The notes under the pieces are model-generated. The model was not told the DNA's origin. It saw nothing but the letters and a program-made list of their open reading frames with translations, and searched no databases. From contig JADFDM010000005.1 of NCBI GenBank assembly GCA_018262795.1, positions 1-64,000 on the forward strand: DNA of 64,000 nucleotides, read 5' to 3'. The stretch is from Sphingobacteriales bacterium (GTDB lineage: Bacteria; Bacteroidota; Bacteroidia; Chitinophagales; LD1). Below, piece by piece: positions 1,788-64,000 of this stretch (positions within the stretch are counted from its first letter, which is position 1; each line of letters begins with the position of its first letter). The translations under genes were made by a program, and so were the position numbers.

Positions 1788-4700
1788 ATGCGCAGTCTTG
1801 TTTTTACATCTTATTTCCTGTTTCTTACTTCTTGTTTCTTGCTTTCTACTTCTCGTATCTACAGTCAGGAAACTACTTTTAAAACCAATGGCCCCGATGA
1901 TTACCGGGAAGGCATTCACGCCTTTGTAAATGCCACCATCTGGAAAAATTACAATACTCGATTAGATAGCGCCACCCTCCTTATCCGCGAAGGAAAAGTG
2001 ACGGCCATTGGACAGAGTATTGCTTTGCCCAAAGGAGCTATAGTGCACGATATGAGCGGTCGCTTTATTTATCCTTCCTTCATTGATATTTTTTCTGATT
2101 ACGGAATGCCCGAAGTGCAAAAACCGAAATACAGCGATGCTCCGCAGATGGAATCGAACCTCAAAGGGGCTTACGGTTGGAACCAGGCCATCCATACCGA
2201 CTTTCATGCCGATGAGAATTTTGTGGCGAACAGCACGGCAGCCGATGAATTGCGCAAAATAGGTTTTGGCGCAGTGCTCACCAATAAGAAAGACGGCATT
2301 GCCCGCGGCACCGGCACGGTGGTTACCCTGGCTAACGGGCGCGAAAACGATGCTATCATAAAGGGAGTAGCCAGTGCAAATTATTCGTTCAGCAAAGGCT
2401 CTTCTACGCAAGATTATCCTTCCTCACTCATGGGAAGTATTGCCCTGTTGCGCCAAACTTATTACGATGCACAATGGTATGCGGGGGAAAAGGAGAAGAA
2501 GGAATACAACATTCATTTAGAAGAATGGAATCGCGAGCAATCGCTGCCGCAGATTTTTGATGCAAGTGGCGACTGGCAACAAATTCTTCGGGCGGATAAA
2601 GTTGGAGATGAGTTGGGCGTGCAGTACATTATCAAGGCTTCCGGCCATGCTTATCAGCGGATAGAGGAGGTGAAAAACACCCAGGCAAAAATCATTACTT
2701 CTCTCAACTTCCCCAAAGCCTATAATGTGGAAGACCCTTTCAAATTACAATGGATTTCGCTGGAGGAAATGAAAAACTGGGAGCTGGCACCCACCAACTG
2801 TGCCGCCCTCGCCAAAGCGGGAATTGATTTTGCCATCACCAGTGCTGACCTCGATAAGAAAGAAGATTTTTTGAACGACCTGCGCAAAGCGATAAAGTTC
2901 GGCTTAGATTCAATGACGGCTCTCAAGGCCCTCACCTACAACCCCGCCTCGTTTCTGAAGGTGTACGATCAAGTGGGTTCATTGGAGCCGGGCAAGCTGG
3001 CTAACTTCTTCATTACCTCTCAACCACTCTTTAATGATAAATGCGAGATCAACGAAAATTGGGTGCAGGGAAAGCGCTATGAAATAAAACCCTTTGCCGA
3101 AAAGGATATTCGAGGGAAATATACGCTCACCTGGTGTCCGGTAGGAACAAAGTGCAAAGCCCTTCCTTTTCAGATGAAGATTAGCGGAGATGAAGCGGCT
3201 CCGAAAACGGTTTTGCTTATCAGCGATTCCGTGAAGCCCGAAGTGAAAATCACTTACAAAGACAAGGACATCAGCTTCTCCTTTGCGATAGATAAAAAAC
3301 CAAGCTCCGGGAAATATCTATTCAGCGGAACCATAGACTACAGCAAAAACTTTTGGAACGGCAAAGGTCAAAATCCCGAAGGCGACTGGCTGCGCTGGGA
3401 AGCCACCCGCACCGAAGGCCCGGAACCCGATACCGCCAAAGCAAAAGTGGACAGCACCGACTACACGCAAAATCTGGGGAAGGTCATTTACCCTTTTACT
3501 GCTTATGGCAACGAAGAGATTCCCAAGCAGGAGAATTATTTGATAAAGAACGGAACCGTGTGGACGAACGAAGCAGAGGGGAATCTCGCGAATGCAGATG
3601 TGCTTATCCGCAATGGAAAAATTGCACAGGTGGGCAAGCAACTCTCTTGCGCTGATTGTAAAACGATTGATGCTACCGGCAAATTTGTGACCAGTGGCAT
3701 TGTGGATGAGCACAGCCACATTGCAATTTCGCAGGGCGTGAATGAAGGGGCCAAAGCCAGCAGTGCCGAAGTGCGCATTGGCGATGTAATTAATTCAGAG
3801 GACATCAACATCTACCGACAATTATCGGGGGGAGTAGTAGCTTCGCAGTTGTTGCACGGTTCGGCTAATCCTATTGGTGGGCAAAGTGGTATTGTGAAGC
3901 TTCGCTGGGGATATGCCCCCGAAAAAATGAAGATTGAAGGAGCTGATCCTTTCATCAAGTTTGCACTGGGCGAAAACGTAAAACAGAGCAACTGGGGCGA
4001 CCAAGCAACGGTGCGCTATCCGCAAACCCGTATGGGGGTAGAGCAGACCTACTGGAACTATTTTACCAAAGCGAAAGAATACGAAAAACAGTGGAAGGAG
4101 TACGATGCCTCGGTGAGTAAGTCTGCAAAGAAGAATACCTCCACTTTTGAAAAACCGCGCAGAGATTTGGATTTAGATGCCTTGGTAGAAGTGCTGAACA
4201 GCCAGCGCTTTATTACATGCCACAGTTATGTGCAAAGCGAGATTACGATGCTGATGCACGTAGCCGATACTTTCGGTTTTAAAGTGAACACGTTCACCCA
4301 CATTCTCGAAGGCTATAAGGTGGCCGATAAATTAAAAGCCCACGGAGCCAATGCCGCCACCTTTGCCGATTGGTGGGACTACAAATACGAGGTGATTGAT
4401 GCCATCCCTTACAACGCAGCTATCCTGACTAAAATGGGAATCAACACCGCTATCAATTCCGATGATGCAGAAATGGGACGCAGGCTCAATCAAGAAGCGG
4501 CCAAGACGATTAAGTATGGCGGCCTTAGCGAAGAGCAAGCCTGGAAACTGTGCACCCTCAATCCCGCAAAAATGTTGCACCTCGATTCGCACATGGGTTC
4601 ACTCAAGGCCGGTAAGGATGCCGATGTAGCGGTGTGGAGCGATAATCCGCTTTCCGTTTATGCGCGATGCGAAAAGACTTTTGTAGATGGAATTCTATTT

Positions 4701-4862
4701 TACGATGTGGAGCGCGATGCTCACATGCGCGACTGGATTCGGGGCGAGCGCGCCCGCTTGATTCAGAAAATGCTGAATGATAAAAAGGCCGGAGCACCTA
4801 CGCAGGAACCACAGCCCAAGAGTCAGCATAACTATACTTGTGATGATATGGGCGAATTATAG
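1788..4862 (+). CDS. Secreted double amidohydrolase, 1024 aa
   Basis: Predicted exported metal-dependent hydrolase of the amidohydrolase (imidazolonepropionase-like) superfamily. It holds two amidohydrolase modules in one chain. The N-terminal half (about 45-430) has the beta-sandwich entry, FIYPSFIDIFSDYG, and the typical ending SLEPGKLANFFI, but lacks the usual HxH metal motif and looks degenerate. The C-terminal half (about 580-1000) keeps DEHSHIA, a His in ITCHSY, another in FTHILEGYK, the late Asp in NSDDAEMG and the ending SLKAGKDADVAVW, so it is probably the active module. Residues 1-27 form a signal peptide, much of it encoded by heptanucleotide repeats. A second amidohydrolase follows at 5293, so the two probably act together in the periplasm. 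The substrate cannot be told. Confidence 0.85.
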   Translation: MRSLVFTSYFLFLTSCFLLSTSRIYSQETTFKTNGPDDYREGIHAFVNATIWKNYNTRLDSATLLIREGKVTAIGQSIALPKGAIVHDMSGRFIYPSFIDIFSDYGMPEVQKPKYSDAPQMESNLKGAYGWNQAIHTDFHADENFVANSTAADELRKIGFGAVLTNKKDGIARGTGTVVTLANGRENDAIIKGVASANYSFSKGSSTQDYPSSLMGSIALLRQTYYDAQWYAGEKEKKEYNIHLEEWNREQSLPQIFDASGDWQQILRADKVGDELGVQYIIKASGHAYQRIEEVKNTQAKIITSLNFPKAYNVEDPFKLQWISLEEMKNWELAPTNCAALAKAGIDFAITSADLDKKEDFLNDLRKAIKFGLDSMTALKALTYNPASFLKVYDQVGSLEPGKLANFFITSQPLFNDKCEINENWVQGKRYEIKPFAEKDIRGKYTLTWCPVGTKCKALPFQMKISGDEAAPKTVLLISDSVKPEVKITYKDKDISFSFAIDKKPSSGKYLFSGTIDYSKNFWNGKGQNPEGDWLRWEATRTEGPEPDTAKAKVDSTDYTQNLGKVIYPFTAYGNEEIPKQENYLIKNGTVWTNEAEGNLANADVLIRNGKIAQVGKQLSCADCKTIDATGKFVTSGIVDEHSHIAISQGVNEGAKASSAEVRIGDVINSEDINIYRQLSGGVVASQLLHGSANPIGGQSGIVKLRWGYAPEKMKIEGADPFIKFALGENVKQSNWGDQATVRYPQTRMGVEQTYWNYFTKAKEYEKQWKEYDASVSKSAKKNTSTFEKPRRDLDLDALVEVLNSQRFITCHSYVQSEITMLMHVADTFGFKVNTFTHILEGYKVADKLKAHGANAATFADWWDYKYEVIDAIPYNAAILTKMGINTAINSDDAEMGRRLNQEAAKTIKYGGLSEEQAWKLCTLNPAKMLHLDSHMGSLKAGKDADVAVWSDNPLSVYARCEKTFVDGILFYDVERDAHMRDWIRGERARLIQKMLNDKKAGAPTQEPQPKSQHNYTCDDMGEL
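1805..1860. repeat. Eight tandem heptanucleotides (consensus TRYTTCT)
   Basis: Eight consecutive 7-mers fill this stretch: TACATCT, TATTTCC, TGTTTCT, TACTTCT, TGTTTCT, TGCTTTC, TACTTCT, CGTATCT. Because 7 is not a multiple of 3, three heptamers make a 21-bp unit and all three plus-strand frames stay open. In the amidohydrolase frame the repeat encodes the core of the signal peptide. Related 7-bp repeats occur at 17297, 18961, 35761 and 37606. Confidence 0.85.
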
Positions 4863-4868
4863 CACGTG

Positions 4869-4889
4869 GATGACACGGATAAAACAGAT
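4869..4889. repeat. Left 21-bp inverted repeat flanking the GxxExxY gene
   Basis: GATGACACGGATAAAACAGAT here is the inverse of 5314-5334 with 18 of 21 positions identical. The two copies enclose the GxxExxY reading frame almost exactly. The left copy lies between the stop of the long amidohydrolase gene and the GxxExxY start. Confidence 0.65.
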
Positions 4890-4900
4890 AAACACTGGAA

Positions 4901-5296
4901 ATGGCTGCGTTATTACATGAGGAGTTAACCGGTTCTATTTTGAAAATCTTTTACTCGGTTTATAATGAACCGGGATTCGGATTTTTAGAAAAAGTGTACC
5001 TAAACGCGATGATGATAGCGCTGAAAAAAGAAGGAATGAAGGTAAATGCACAGAGAAAGATTGAAGTATTCTTTCAGGATAGGATAGTAGGCGAATACTT
5101 TGCAGCTATAATGGTGAATGATTTGGTAATTCTTGAATTAAAGGCGGCTGAATTGTTGGTGGTAGAGCACGAGTTGCCGTTGATTAATTATCTGAAAGCC
5201 ACAGAAATGGAAGTAGGGCTATTATTAAACTTCGGTGGTAAGCCGGAGTTCAGAAGGAAAATATTCACAAACGACAAAAAGAAAATCACTCTATGA
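4901..5296 (+). CDS. GxxExxY protein, PD-(D/E)xK nuclease-like, probably inactive
   Basis: Member of the GxxExxY family (PDDEXK_3 fold), small proteins found in many copies in some environmental bacteria and of unknown role. The signature is GFLEKVY at residues 27-33, and the ELK end of the nuclease motif is at 79-81. The Asp that normally precedes it (in the GEYxADLxV segment) is Ala69 here, codon GCT at 5105-5107, so metal-dependent cleavage is doubtful. The later INYLKA segment is conserved. The gene sits between two amidohydrolase genes with no obvious functional link. Its stop overlaps the next start (ATGA at 5293-5296), and 21-bp inverted repeats flank it. I infer an inserted cassette. 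Confidence 0.85.
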   Translation: MAALLHEELTGSILKIFYSVYNEPGFGFLEKVYLNAMMIALKKEGMKVNAQRKIEVFFQDRIVGEYFAAIMVNDLVILELKAAELLVVEHELPLINYLKATEMEVGLLLNFGGKPEFRRKIFTNDKKKITL

Positions 5297-6597
5297 ATAT
5301 CAAATCAGTATCCATCTGTCTGATCAGTGTCATCTGTGTGCTATCCGCATTTGCGCAATCTGATGTACCCGCACCGGCACCTGCTCAGTCGCAGAGCATT
5401 TATCTGACTCATGCCACTATTCACACAGGCGATGGCAAGGTGTTACACGATGCCACTATTGGTTTCGACAAAGGCAAGATTATTTTTTTGGCAGAAAGCC
5501 CTTCCTTCAAAACAGATGAAACGATGGGGAAGGTAATAGACTGCACCGGCAAGCAGATTTACCCCGGCATTATTGCTCCGTACACCAAGGCGGGTATAGA
5601 TGAAATAGAAGCTGTGCGCGCCACGAACGACTATTCCGAAACCGGCAGCTATAATCCCGATGTGCGCGCTATTGTAGCCTACAACACCGACTCGCGAGTT
5701 ACTCCTACCCTTCGCAGCAACGGGATTTTGTTTGCGCAAACGGTGCCGCTCGGTGGGGTACTTTCCGGTACCTCGGCCCTTGTGCAACTCGATGCGTGGA
5801 ACTGGGAAGATGCCTTAGTAAAAGAAGACGGTATCTGGCTCAACTGGCCTTCGATGGTGAGCGGTGGCGGCTGGTGGGGCAATCCGCGACCTTTTCAGGA
5901 AAACAAGAATTACAGCAAACAAGCCGATGCCATCCGTGAATATTTCCGCGAAGCGAAAAGCTATGCCGAAGAAGCCAGCCACACAAAAACCAATCTGCGC
6001 TTCGAAGCGATGAAACCTCTTTTCAACCAAACAGCTACGCTTTATATCGCAGCCGGAGGAGCCAAAGAAATGCAACACGCCATTGCCTTTGCGGAAGAAC
6101 TGGGGCTGCGGATAGTGCTTGCCGGGGCGCACGATTCGTATCAAATAGCAGAGGAACTGGCACGGAAAAAGATTCCCGTTATTCTCGACAACCCGCATTC
6201 GCTACCCACCTTCCCTGAAGAGGATGTGAATCAACCTTATAAAACACCGGGGGAACTTCAAAAAGCAGGAGTGCTTTTCTGCCTCAGCATTCCGGGGCGC
6301 TTTTGGGAAGAGCGCAACCTGATGTTCGAAGCCGGCACCGCAGTGGCTTGGGGGCTGTCGAAAGAGGAGGCCTTAGCCACCATTACTTCCAATGCCGCCA
6401 AAATATTGGGGGTGGACGATAAAATCGGAACTCTCGAAAAAGGGAAATCGGCTTCGCTGATCATTTCTTCGGGCGATGTGCTCGACATGAAAAGCTCCGT
6501 GATTGAACACGCCTTTATTGACGGTCGCGAAATAAACCTCGACAACAAGCAAAAGGAATTAGACCGCAAGTTTGAGAAGAAGTACGGCCTGAATTAG
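5293..6597 (+). CDS. Secreted amidohydrolase family protein, 434 aa
   Basis: Single-module amidohydrolase of the imidazolonepropionase-like group. It has an N-terminal signal peptide ending near AFAQ (residue 22), then the early beta-sandwich (THATIHTGDG), IYPGIIAPYTKAG where active family members carry HxH, and the usual end IGTLEKGKSASLII. The HxH pair is replaced by APYTK, so this copy, like the first half of the preceding gene, may be catalytically degenerate and could act as partner of the active module. The signal peptide coding region contains 9-bp-like ATCTGT/ATCAGT repeats, including the right inverted repeat of the GxxExxY cassette. Confidence 0.82.
   Translation: MNIKSVSICLISVICVLSAFAQSDVPAPAPAQSQSIYLTHATIHTGDGKVLHDATIGFDKGKIIFLAESPSFKTDETMGKVIDCTGKQIYPGIIAPYTKAGIDEIEAVRATNDYSETGSYNPDVRAIVAYNTDSRVTPTLRSNGILFAQTVPLGGVLSGTSALVQLDAWNWEDALVKEDGIWLNWPSMVSGGGWWGNPRPFQENKNYSKQADAIREYFREAKSYAEEASHTKTNLRFEAMKPLFNQTATLYIAAGGAKEMQHAIAFAEELGLRIVLAGAHDSYQIAEELARKKIPVILDNPHSLPTFPEEDVNQPYKTPGELQKAGVLFCLSIPGRFWEERNLMFEAGTAVAWGLSKEEALATITSNAAKILGVDDKIGTLEKGKSASLIISSGDVLDMKSSVIEHAFIDGREINLDNKQKELDRKFEKKYGLN
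5314..5334. repeat. Right 21-bp inverted repeat, inside a signal peptide
   Basis: ATCTGTCTGATCAGTGTCATC is inverse to 4869-4889 (18/21). It belongs to a longer run of alternating ATCAGT and ATCTGT words (about 5305-5340) that encodes residues 5-16 of the amidohydrolase signal peptide. Confidence 0.65.
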
Positions 6598-15164: not shown

Positions 15165-15256
15165 CATATCCTCCATGACGAACAGCGGAAGAAGGAATTG
15201 TACTTTCCCCTCAATTTTTTTTGGAATATCTTAGAGGGTGGTATTTTCACAGTCTG
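15165..15256. repeat. 92-bp repeat, copy A (IS-end-like)
   Basis: This stretch is about 92% identical to 48553-48645 in the same orientation: six substitutions and one base of length difference in a T-run. Copy B lies directly in a transposase remnant, so copy A is probably the end of a related element. Its last 29 bases also resemble 131-158. It sits about 120 bp before the HindIII-like gene. The rest of 14946-15378 holds only the hflX leader and a weak promoter box. Confidence 0.8.
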
Positions 15257-15346
15257 CCATTAGCGGTAATGCTGGACGACCATACAACTGACAGTAACAG
15301 TTGACAACTTTTGAGTATTTCAAGACAGACCACCCGACTATTTAAG

Positions 15347-48436: not shown

Positions 48437-48645
48437 ATGACTAAATAATTCACACTCAGGGAATTTCAGGAAAGATTTCAAACGGAGGAAGATTGCTATG
48501 CCTATCTGTGCCATCAAAAATGGAGTAAAGGATATAAGTGCCGCAGTTGCCACATATCCTCCATGATGAACAGCGAAAGAAGAAATTGTACTTTTTCCTC
48601 AATTTTTTTTTGGAATATCTTGGAGGGTGGTATTTTCACAGTCTG
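48437..48645 (+). pseudogene. IS1595-type transposase remnant
   Basis: From an ATG at 48437 the frame reads MTK, stop (TAA 48446-48448), then FTLREFQERFQTEEDCYAYL and HQKWSKGYKCRSCH, the zinc-ribbon N-terminus of IS1595/ISXO2-like transposases. After about 48552 it passes into the 92-bp repeat shared with 15165-15256 and stops; the DDE catalytic part is missing. I read this as the first part of a transposase joined by deletion to the end of an element. It marks the left side of the copper island. Confidence 0.75.
48553..48645. repeat. 92-bp repeat, copy B (inside the IS remnant)
   Basis: Direct repeat of 15165-15256, 93 bp here because of a 9-T rather than 8-T run. It ends with a sequence like that at 131-158. 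The 255 bp from 48646 to 48900 contain no gene I can support. Confidence 0.8.
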
Positions 48646-48858
48646 ACGTTATGCGTAACCCGTTTGACTACCGTGCGACTTCAAACTAACGGACTTTCAA
48701 CAACTTTTTTTGGCAATTTTGGGACAACAACCGACACTCCTTCTAACTGTCGACACGGAAAAAAAAGAAAGAGTGTTTTCTCCAACGCTTTGTTCCGGTT
48801 CATGAAGCACATCATCTTTTTTTATGACAACCATCAGTCATAAACAGATATTTCATAT

Positions 48859-61961: not shown

Positions 61962-64000
61962 ATGCTAAAAAAAATAATAGAGTGGAGTGTTCAGAATAGA
62001 TTCTTTGTAATACTAATTACACTTGCTCTAATTGCAGCGGGAGTTTATTCTATTCAGAACATTAAGATTGATGCTATTCCCGATCTAAGTGATACACAGG
62101 TAATCATTTATACGGAATATCCCGGACAAGCTCCCGAACTGGTAGAACAACAAGTTACCTATCCGCTGACTACTGCCATGGTTTCCATTCCAAAATCAAA
62201 AGTGGTACGAGGGTATTCCTTTTTCGGAGTTTCATTCGTGTATATCATTTTTGAAGACGGCACTGATTTATATTGGGCAAGAAGTCGGGTGTTGGAATAT
62301 CTCAATTATGCCGCCAACAAATTACCCGCCAATGTTAAACCAGCCATTGGCCCCGATGCTACGGGCTTGGGGTGGGTTTACCAGTATGCTTTAACAAGCG
62401 ATTCATTGGATTTGGGGAAACTTCGGTCCATTCAAGATTGGTATTTGCGCTACGGATTGGCTAGTGTGGATGGGGTGGCAGAAGTAGCCAGCATCGGAGG
62501 GTATGTCCGCAATTATCGTGTTACCGTTGACCCCGTAAAAATGAAAGCCTTCAAGGTTTCATTGATGCAGGTCGAAAATGCCATCAAGCGAAGTAATAAT
62601 GATGTGGGAGGCGGAACCATTGAAATGGGCGAAATGGAATTTATGATTCGCGGCAAAGGGTATTTAAAATCATTGGATGATTTCAACAAAATTCCGCTCT
62701 CCGTAGATACGCTTGGCACACCCGTCTATCTTTCACAAATCGCCACTGTTTCAGTGGAGCCTTCCTCACGAAGGGGAATTGCCGAACTAAACGGCAAAGG
62801 CGAAACCGTTGGCGGCATTGTAATTATGCGGGATAAGGAAAATGCAACTGCCACTATTGATGCAGTAAAAAAGAAATTGATTGAACTGGAAAAAGGTCTT
62901 CCGAAAGATGTAAAAATTAAAACAGTCTATGACCGTTCCGATTTAATAAAAAGGAGTGTTGCCACCTTGCGCAACAAACTCATTGAAGAGGCAATCATCG
63001 TTTCACTCGTTTGTTTACTTTTTCTTTTCCATTTCCAAAGCGGATTAGTTGCCATCATCATGCTGCCCATTGCCATTATCCTTTCATTTATTGTAATGAA
63101 TATGCAGGGCATCAATGCCAACATTATGTCGCTTGGTGGCATTGCCATTGCCATCGGAGCAATGGTGGACGGAGCAATTATTATGATTGAAAATGCGCAC
63201 AAACACATTGAGCATGATAACGAAAGTGGCAAAACCCGATGGCAAATAATTACCGAAGCGGCAGTTGAAGTGGGTCCTACTTTATTTTTTTCCTTGTTAG
63301 TGATAGCTGTTTCATTCTTCCCAATTTTCACCTTGCAGGATCAGGAAGGGCGTTTATTCAAACCACTTGCATTCACCAAGACTTACGCCATGGCGGCAGC
63401 TGCATTGCTATCCATTACCCTCGTTCCGGTTTTAATGGGGTTTTTTATCAGAGGTAAAATTCCGAAAGAAGATAAAAATCCTGTCAATCGTTTGATGATA
63501 AAAATCTATCATCCTGTTTTAAATTTTGTTTTACGATTTAAAAAGTCTGTTTTATTAGCTGCGCTGTTATTGCTTGCAGTTACAATAATTCCATACAGCA
63601 AAATTGGCTCAGAGTTTATGCCCCCACTTTGGGAAGGTGATTTGCTATACATGCCTTCTAGTTTTCCTGGCATTTCTATTACCAAAGCAAAACAGGTTTT
63701 GCAGCAAACCGATAAAATTATCCGCACATTTCCCGAAGTAGAAAATGTTTTTGGCAAAATGGGCAGAGCCGAAACATCCACTGACCCCGCACCACTGGAT
63801 ATGATGGAAACAACCATTATACTCAAACCGGAAAACGAATGGAGAAAAGGAATGACACCCGACAAGCTCATTTCCGAAATGGATAAAGCATTACAAATTC
63901 CCGGGCTCACCAATGTATGGACCATGCCAATCAAGAACCGTATTGATATGCTCAGCACTGGAATTAAAACCCCCATCGGTATAAAAATTGGTGGTGCAGA
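61962..64000 (+). CDS. cusA: CusA/CzcA-type heavy-metal RND pump (partial, cut by window end)
   Basis: Reading frame from 61962 to the right edge without a stop: 679 codons, about two thirds of the expected ~1040-1050. The first helix is near residues 14-31, then DAIPDLSDTQVIIYTEYPGQAPELVEQQVTYPL, typical of HME-RND pumps; the proton-path region shows GAMVDGAIIMIENAHKH (about 401-417) in helix 4, the heavy-metal-type acidic pattern. A Met-rich transport region follows (GSEFMPPLWEGDLL). Inner-membrane pump for CusCB, whose genes are at 49973-52611. The 3' end is outside the window. Confidence 0.93.
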   Translation, partial: MLKKIIEWSVQNRFFVILITLALIAAGVYSIQNIKIDAIPDLSDTQVIIYTEYPGQAPELVEQQVTYPLTTAMVSIPKSKVVRGYSFFGVSFVYIIFEDGTDLYWARSRVLEYLNYAANKLPANVKPAIGPDATGLGWVYQYALTSDSLDLGKLRSIQDWYLRYGLASVDGVAEVASIGGYVRNYRVTVDPVKMKAFKVSLMQVENAIKRSNNDVGGGTIEMGEMEFMIRGKGYLKSLDDFNKIPLSVDTLGTPVYLSQIATVSVEPSSRRGIAELNGKGETVGGIVIMRDKENATATIDAVKKKLIELEKGLPKDVKIKTVYDRSDLIKRSVATLRNKLIEEAIIVSLVCLLFLFHFQSGLVAIIMLPIAIILSFIVMNMQGINANIMSLGGIAIAIGAMVDGAIIMIENAHKHIEHDNESGKTRWQIITEAAVEVGPTLFFSLLVIAVSFFPIFTLQDQEGRLFKPLAFTKTYAMAAAALLSITLVPVLMGFFIRGKIPKEDKNPVNRLMIKIYHPVLNFVLRFKKSVLLAALLLLAVTIIPYSKIGSEFMPPLWEGDLLYMPSSFPGISITKAKQVLQQTDKIIRTFPEVENVFGKMGRAETSTDPAPLDMMETTIILKPENEWRKGMTPDKLISEMDKALQIPGLTNVWTMPIKNRIDMLSTGIKTPIGIKIGGA

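Follow-up and report, generated by a model that had tools for sequence, protein, structure and literature searches.

Background

Insertion sequences and MITEs are known by inverted ends, by copies at unrelated sites, by gene-less forms and by empty sites. In REP/RAYT elements, short hairpin repeats are tied to a small nuclease gene, and RAYT itself is a Y1 HUH enzyme. In the open-licence PMC literature we found no account of the function of the GxxExxY gene and no description of the class of cassette reported here; the nearest published system, as far as the available part of the source goes, is the 23S rRNA IVS (PMC4990558). According to that partial text, the IVS of Coxiella is a 428-nt element with one small S23/four-helix ORF and terminal inverted repeats (28-bp stem), and IVSs are sporadically distributed and regarded as selfish (PMC4990558). 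A further relevant feature is the TAACTGA heptamer, a 7-nt repeat that in some Bacteroidetes and cyanobacteria directly precedes start codons; the accessible portion of the article describes these heptamers as direct repeats with a proposed regulatory role (PMC4679880).

How does our locus compare? It lies in a window of 64 kb (the whole stretch of DNA that was analysed) and consists of a GxxExxY gene between two mutually inverse arms. With the 23S rRNA IVS, as known from that partial text, it shares the single small ORF, the terminal inverted repeats and the sporadic distribution, but it differs in its place at a protein operon junction and in its arms with a period of about 9 nt. The element is not an IVS, lying as it does between two amidohydrolase genes and carrying an ORF of PF13366; the four-helix cassettes of related genomes also differ from the IVS in that their neighbours are protein genes and their arms have a 7-nt period. 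With insertion sequences and MITEs the cassettes have in common their inverted ends, their occurrence at unrelated sites, forms that lack a gene, and empty sites. Terminal inverted repeats, as expected of an insertion sequence, are present; a recognised transposase is lacking, and the cassettes further differ in that no target duplication was detected, arm words vary between elements of one genome, and insertion is mostly in sense at stop/start gaps. The short hairpin repeats with a small nuclease gene may be likened to REP/RAYT, but the window protein matches only PF13366 in Pfam. The TAACTGA heptamers resemble the cassettes in being 7-nt repeats before start codons, but the part of the article available states no link to a four-helix or GxxExxY gene (PMC4679880).

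The window cassette

The features of the locus are as follows.

1788..4862, + strand: amh1, upstream amidohydrolase of a natural pair; its stop (4860-4862) is in the left arm; beside amh2 in relatives
4859..4897, + strand: left arm, ATAGCACGTGGATGACACGGATAAAACAGATAAACACTG, units of about 9 nt
4901..5296, + strand: GxxExxY gene (PF13366, TIGR04256); keeps GxxE and ExK, with Ala69 at the place of a conserved Asp
5293..6597, + strand: amh2, downstream amidohydrolase; sequence common to empty-site relatives restarts at about 5345
5306..5344, + strand: right arm, inverse of the left arm at 30/39; in-frame leader codons of amh2 (..SICLISVICVLS..)

The initial annotation had pointed out an inverted match of 4869-4889 with 5314-5334 (18/21 identical) bracketing the GxxExxY gene. 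Its positions and count were confirmed, and the match proved longer, widening to 39 nt (4859-4897 against 5306-5344, 30/39 identical). The window has a single 30/39 pair, and none arose in 12 order-1 simulations. Inverted centres of at least 18/21 with a spacing of at most 600 nt number 2 in the 64-kb window, as against 2 across the 12 order-1 simulations combined; the other 18/21 pair of the window has 21-nt arms and lies at 62577/63143. The window also holds a direct repeat, 15165-15269 and 48553-48658, of about 100 nt each, 83-91% alike and 33 kb apart.

In the 3.48-Mb genome ATCNGTGTCATC is present three times, two of them being the arms of the window cassette. The third copy (L291, G000:C12:150600-151600) lies within a right-arm-like run just upstream of another gene, and the PF13366 search of the genome gave no match there. 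A 20-base repeat pattern offered in the initial annotation had 0 matches at up to 3 mismatches; this null search is no argument against the repeat, because the arm spacer from ATCTGT to ATC is 3 bases while the pattern had 2.

Both arms touch the neighbouring genes. The upstream stop codon (4860-4862) falls within the outer end of the left arm, the ATG of amh2 overlaps the GxxExxY stop (ATGA), and the right arm lies within the downstream ORF (5293-6597). Read directly in that frame, ATC TGT CTG ATC AGT GTC ATC TGT GTG gives ICLISVICV, the hydrophobic core of the leader. The right copy had been placed in the signal peptide of the next amidohydrolase, and it is indeed in frame in the amh2 leader, where signal-peptide calls were made by eye and without a predictor.

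The gene belongs to the GxxExxY/PDDEXK_3 family, as both profile scores exceed the curated cut-offs (PF13366, E 7.9e-33, 113.7 bits, cut-off 22; TIGR04256, E 9.6e-31, 106.6 bits, cut-off 35). These are its only Pfam/TIGR matches, and no transposase was recognised in it. For the window protein, PADLOC and PHROG searches gave 0 matches, as did a profile search of PDB sequences; a distant homologue (L155) has weak Cas4-type matches in PADLOC/PHROGs (E 0.0012 and 5e-4). The predicted structure has a pLDDT of 81.9, and its best PDB fold match, itself weak (E 1e-3, TM 0.54-0.57), is SSO0001 (4ic1), which we take to be a Cas4 protein; next come lambda exonuclease and LHK-Exo, both with weaker E. From this modelled fold we infer that the GxxExxY protein is probably a nuclease of the PD-(D/E)XK fold. 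The PD-(D/E)XK active-site motif comprises an Asp plus the ExK residues. The window protein retains E79 and K81 but has Ala69 where 29 other homologues compared have Asp; it lacks the full active-site set, so the window copy is probably inactive, or dead as an element. In another homologue, L243 (G009), ELQ replaces ExK at the presumed active site.

Inverted flanks at other loci

Is the layout confined to the window? PF13366 genes occur in 30 of 40 related genomes and four-helix-bundle (PF05635) genes in 36 of 40. With a threshold score of at least 14, inverted flanks were found at 57 of the 82 GxxExxY loci of related genomes that have both flanks, against rates of 2.0% among 1230 mismatched pairs and 0.2% among as many shuffles; the other 25 loci fall below the threshold. 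Direct flank similarity is raised too (24% of the 82 loci). None of the 34 window ORFs of at least 200 aa has inverted flanks at this threshold. The four-helix genes of the same genomes show the inverted layout at 19/29 loci against 11/435. In a cross-phylum set, taken from named genomes of several phyla by record title, many of them metagenome-assembled, 44/76 GxxExxY loci have inverted flanks against 122/1520 mismatched pairs (8%), the higher null being due to a shared word. Among the closest homologues of the window protein the figures are 21/30 against 144/870 mismatched; most of those in other genomes carry the word class of the window, and the outer end ATAGCAC or TTAGCAC is also found at homologues elsewhere (G052, G034).

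Within the window's own genome there are four other GxxExxY matches. The one on C13 passes (score 16.0), the one on C4 stays below the threshold (10.5) with arms visible by eye, and two fragments have no inverted flanks (7.5 and 10.0). As to whether the same repeat flanks other copies, inverted flanks are frequent, but their words differ between copies.

Some flanks are of another shape. At L095 the GxxExxY gene has, by eye, a hairpin of about 118 nt as its flank on either side. Some cassettes may end in whole hairpins, and because some flanks resemble them, the picture of two simple arms is incomplete. Four window-clade cassettes with similar flanks (L234, L237, L245, L256), from two families of the order, sit by eye at a kynureninase/kynurenine monooxygenase junction, perhaps a recurrent site.

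Arm words and periods

In GxxExxY cassettes the periodicity of the arms peaks broadly at 9 nt (identity at lag 9 is 0.402, against 0.290 when shuffled). Among 102 such arms the best period is 9 in 50, 8 in 23 and 10 in 11, and only 36% singly exceed 95% of shuffles in periodicity. PF05635 arms have a sharp 7-nt period (0.647 against 0.313; 24/28 arms). Repeat words differ between GxxExxY cassettes, and arm similarity tracks protein identity (r 0.393 for pairs below 70% identity, 0 of 2000 permutations as high), in a set that still contains same-site pairs below 70%. Because the arm word follows the protein and the arm period follows the protein family, it is suggested that the element's protein reads the arms.

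Orientation and position in operons

Orientation was scored relative to the neighbours, defined as the nearest long ORFs, with orthologous copies included. Of 78 GxxExxY loci in the related set, 57 are (+,+) and 5 (-,-), that is, the gene is in sense in 57/62 cases with same-direction neighbours; for four-helix genes the count is 23/25 (27 loci overall). As background, adjacent window ORFs lie on the same strand in 34/51 cases. Cross-phylum loci with arms are in sense in 30 cases against 1 (35 overall). In related loci with arms the median distance from the upstream stop to the left arm is 6 nt (n=49, 33 of them within -10 to 30), and that from the right arm to the downstream ATG is 12 nt (n=47); in the cross-phylum set these medians become 6 and 24 nt. 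It could be that selection has spared those cassettes that lie in sense and at junctions.

The nuoH-nuoI junction, where both genes were identified by eye, could be read at 14 of 15 loci. The gap is 1-2 nt in four congeners (G014, G004, G016, G009), 8, 22, 24 and 15 nt in G010, G012, G032 and G033, and 141 nt in G026. The window's genome and G015 each have a GxxExxY cassette there. G006 has a four-helix gene that is frameshifted and has 7-nt arms; G008 shows, by eye, an 88-nt hairpin without a gene, and G013, also by eye, a right arm alone. Inserts of different kinds are found in these 5 genomes, the number of separate insertions being undetermined. In the nuo operon of the window's genome (L292, G000:C13:79900-82800) there are, besides the GxxExxY cassette before nuoI, two four-helix cassettes with 7-nt arms, by eye one between nuoC- and nuoD-like genes and one before the nuoH-like gene.

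The amh1-amh2 junction and inferred leader capture

For the junction of the window itself, 26 of 30 matched loci were read, and both amidohydrolases were found in 25, window included. The two genes are adjacent in 21 of the 25, with a gap of -13 to 84 nt; the suggestion that the GxxExxY gene splits a natural gene pair is borne out, and the empty sites looked for in relatives do exist. The gene with its repeats lies between the amidohydrolases in 3/25, namely the window (G000), G008 and G007, and the finding that would have refuted the initial annotation, the gene at this site without the repeat, was not met with in G007 or G008. One junction (G010) has another insert in a 269-nt gap, by eye another short ORF. 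At the G007 site both arms are well preserved, each made up of about four 9-nt units, and the start codon that follows them is intact; in G008 the right arm is inside the leader as in the window. In a tree of 32 homologues, a common insertion in G000, G007 and G008 is neither demonstrated nor excluded (support 34/0).

Did the insertion rewrite the 5' end of the downstream gene, as had been proposed? In the window and G008 the ATG and most of the leader are in the element, which favours the proposal, but G015 has the leader peptide ISVICV with the GxxExxY gene absent. Because of this, the age and direction of the leader replacement remain undecided.

In the wider set, the right arm extends into the downstream ORF in 4/47 GxxExxY and 1/18 four-helix cases. 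Two of the four GxxExxY cases are the amh site (window, G008), and in L099 the overlap is 13 nt only; in L010 (G007) and the four-helix L144 (G008) the arm forms a hydrophobic leader. Among 25 relatives, the amh2 leader DNA exceeds the 95% null for periodicity in 7, strongly in G011 and G031 (lag 7, 0.73) and in G004 (lag 8, 0.69, with an inverse copy upstream), and marginally in G005, G009, G012 and G022. The other 18, including G008 and G007, are not above it, and the window leader has 0.55 against 0.50 at lag 9. The amh1 leader was also considered as arm-derived and rejected: its lag-7 identity is 0.52, and there is no inverse copy (score 7.0) upstream of it.

In GxxExxY cassettes the right arms exceed the left ones in hydrophobicity, which was not so for four-helix right arms in the same comparison. 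Selection for hydrophobic right arms was rejected in the related set (0.83 against 0.81 in same-base shuffles) and likewise in the cross-phylum GxxExxY set, only slightly above shuffles (1.34 against 1.07); T-rich base composition of the right arms largely explains the hydrophobicity. Capture of leaders from arms is an inference, with leaders called by eye and export not shown; at amh2, the secretion signal appears to be supplied by one end of the cassette.

Inferred mobility and alternative explanations

Similar proteins were found at loci without flank homology, with arms alike (L095/L100, 82%; L085/L096, 80%; L075/L107, 78%); L033/L092 (89%) are also at different sites, L033 being without arms. 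A target duplication of at least 5 nt was seen in 2/40 loci against a null of 3.8%, none above chance, and the true ends may be slightly outside the aligned arms. TGTATTA lies just outside the periodic arm in the right flanks of L013, L019, L078 and L091, possibly nearer the true element end. We infer that GxxExxY cassettes are mobile from comparative evidence only; no movement was seen, and the comparison set contains no filled/empty pair from one species. The earlier suggestion of a small mobile cassette is supported to that extent, with the window copy probably dead.

It seems to us probable that the element in the window, some 490 bp in length, is an old copy of a small mobile cassette and can probably no longer move; it is placed in a stop/start operon gap, with arms that its protein is inferred to cut and with one of them fused to a leader. 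Such a cassette consists of a left arm, the GxxExxY gene and a right arm, the arms being imperfect repeats of about 9 nt inverse to each other, and cassettes of this kind mostly lie in sense within operons, after the stop of one gene and before the start of the next. Its protein is inferred to recognise the arms of its own element, and its cut would let the cassette reach a new junction. At amh2 the right arm would have been fused in frame, the element giving the start codon and the hydrophobic core of the leader, and the remnant may be kept because it now does so.

It is possible, if in our view doubtful, that the cassettes are MITE-like passengers moved by an enzyme not their own, for instance one of the cell or of a retroelement, with the GxxExxY and four-helix genes as cargo. 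Two protein families in one layout would fit this, as would the gene-less hairpin (G008) and solo right arm (G013) seen by eye between nuoH and nuoI; a route through RNA would be in keeping with insertion in sense at gene junctions, and the mobility of the four-helix IVS elements of 23S rRNA is unexplained in the accessible part of the source (PMC4990558). Against this stands the dependence of arm word on protein and of arm period on protein family, which suggests that the protein reads the arms.

Could the arms instead pair in the operon mRNA as a functional stem enclosing the ORF, with that pairing under selection? The sense orientation in operons is compatible with that, RNase III cuts IVS stems according to the partial text (PMC4990558), and 8 double changes were found at fixed sites where 2.0 were expected. 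But 30 one-sided changes break pairing at the fixed sites (262 paired cells), and only 3 of the 8 double changes preserve the pair, close to the one in three that chance would give. We consider a working stem unlikely and rejected it, as most fixed-site changes disrupt pairing from one arm only and double changes preserve it at about chance level; the pattern is one of decay rather than of maintenance as a stem. That the gene is simply one more small gene of its operon, with a leader repeat that arose from Ile and Val codons by coincidence, is highly improbable. Hydrophobic leaders of gene-less relatives do have similar residues (ISVICV in G015 being an example), but a 30/39 match of the arms, the recurrence of the outer end at homologues elsewhere and the empty sites at the amh junction all speak against coincidence.

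The reading of the window cassette as a mobile element holds up; the cassette is one member, now decayed, of a broad class. Our fuller proposal, for which we judge the chances to be about even, is that these are undescribed mini-mobile cassettes with a family-specific arm code (about 9 nt for GxxExxY, 7 nt for four-helix). They would insert in sense at stop/start junctions of operons, leaving no target duplication, and their right arms would time and again have become new signal peptides of the gene downstream.

Implications

Since arm words track the protein, the pairing of protein and DNA is directly testable. If GxxExxY and four-helix genes mark junction-seeking cassettes, a large unexplained gene set would gain a role. 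Small insertions within operons would then become predictable, and there would be a concrete path from repeat DNA to a secretion signal.
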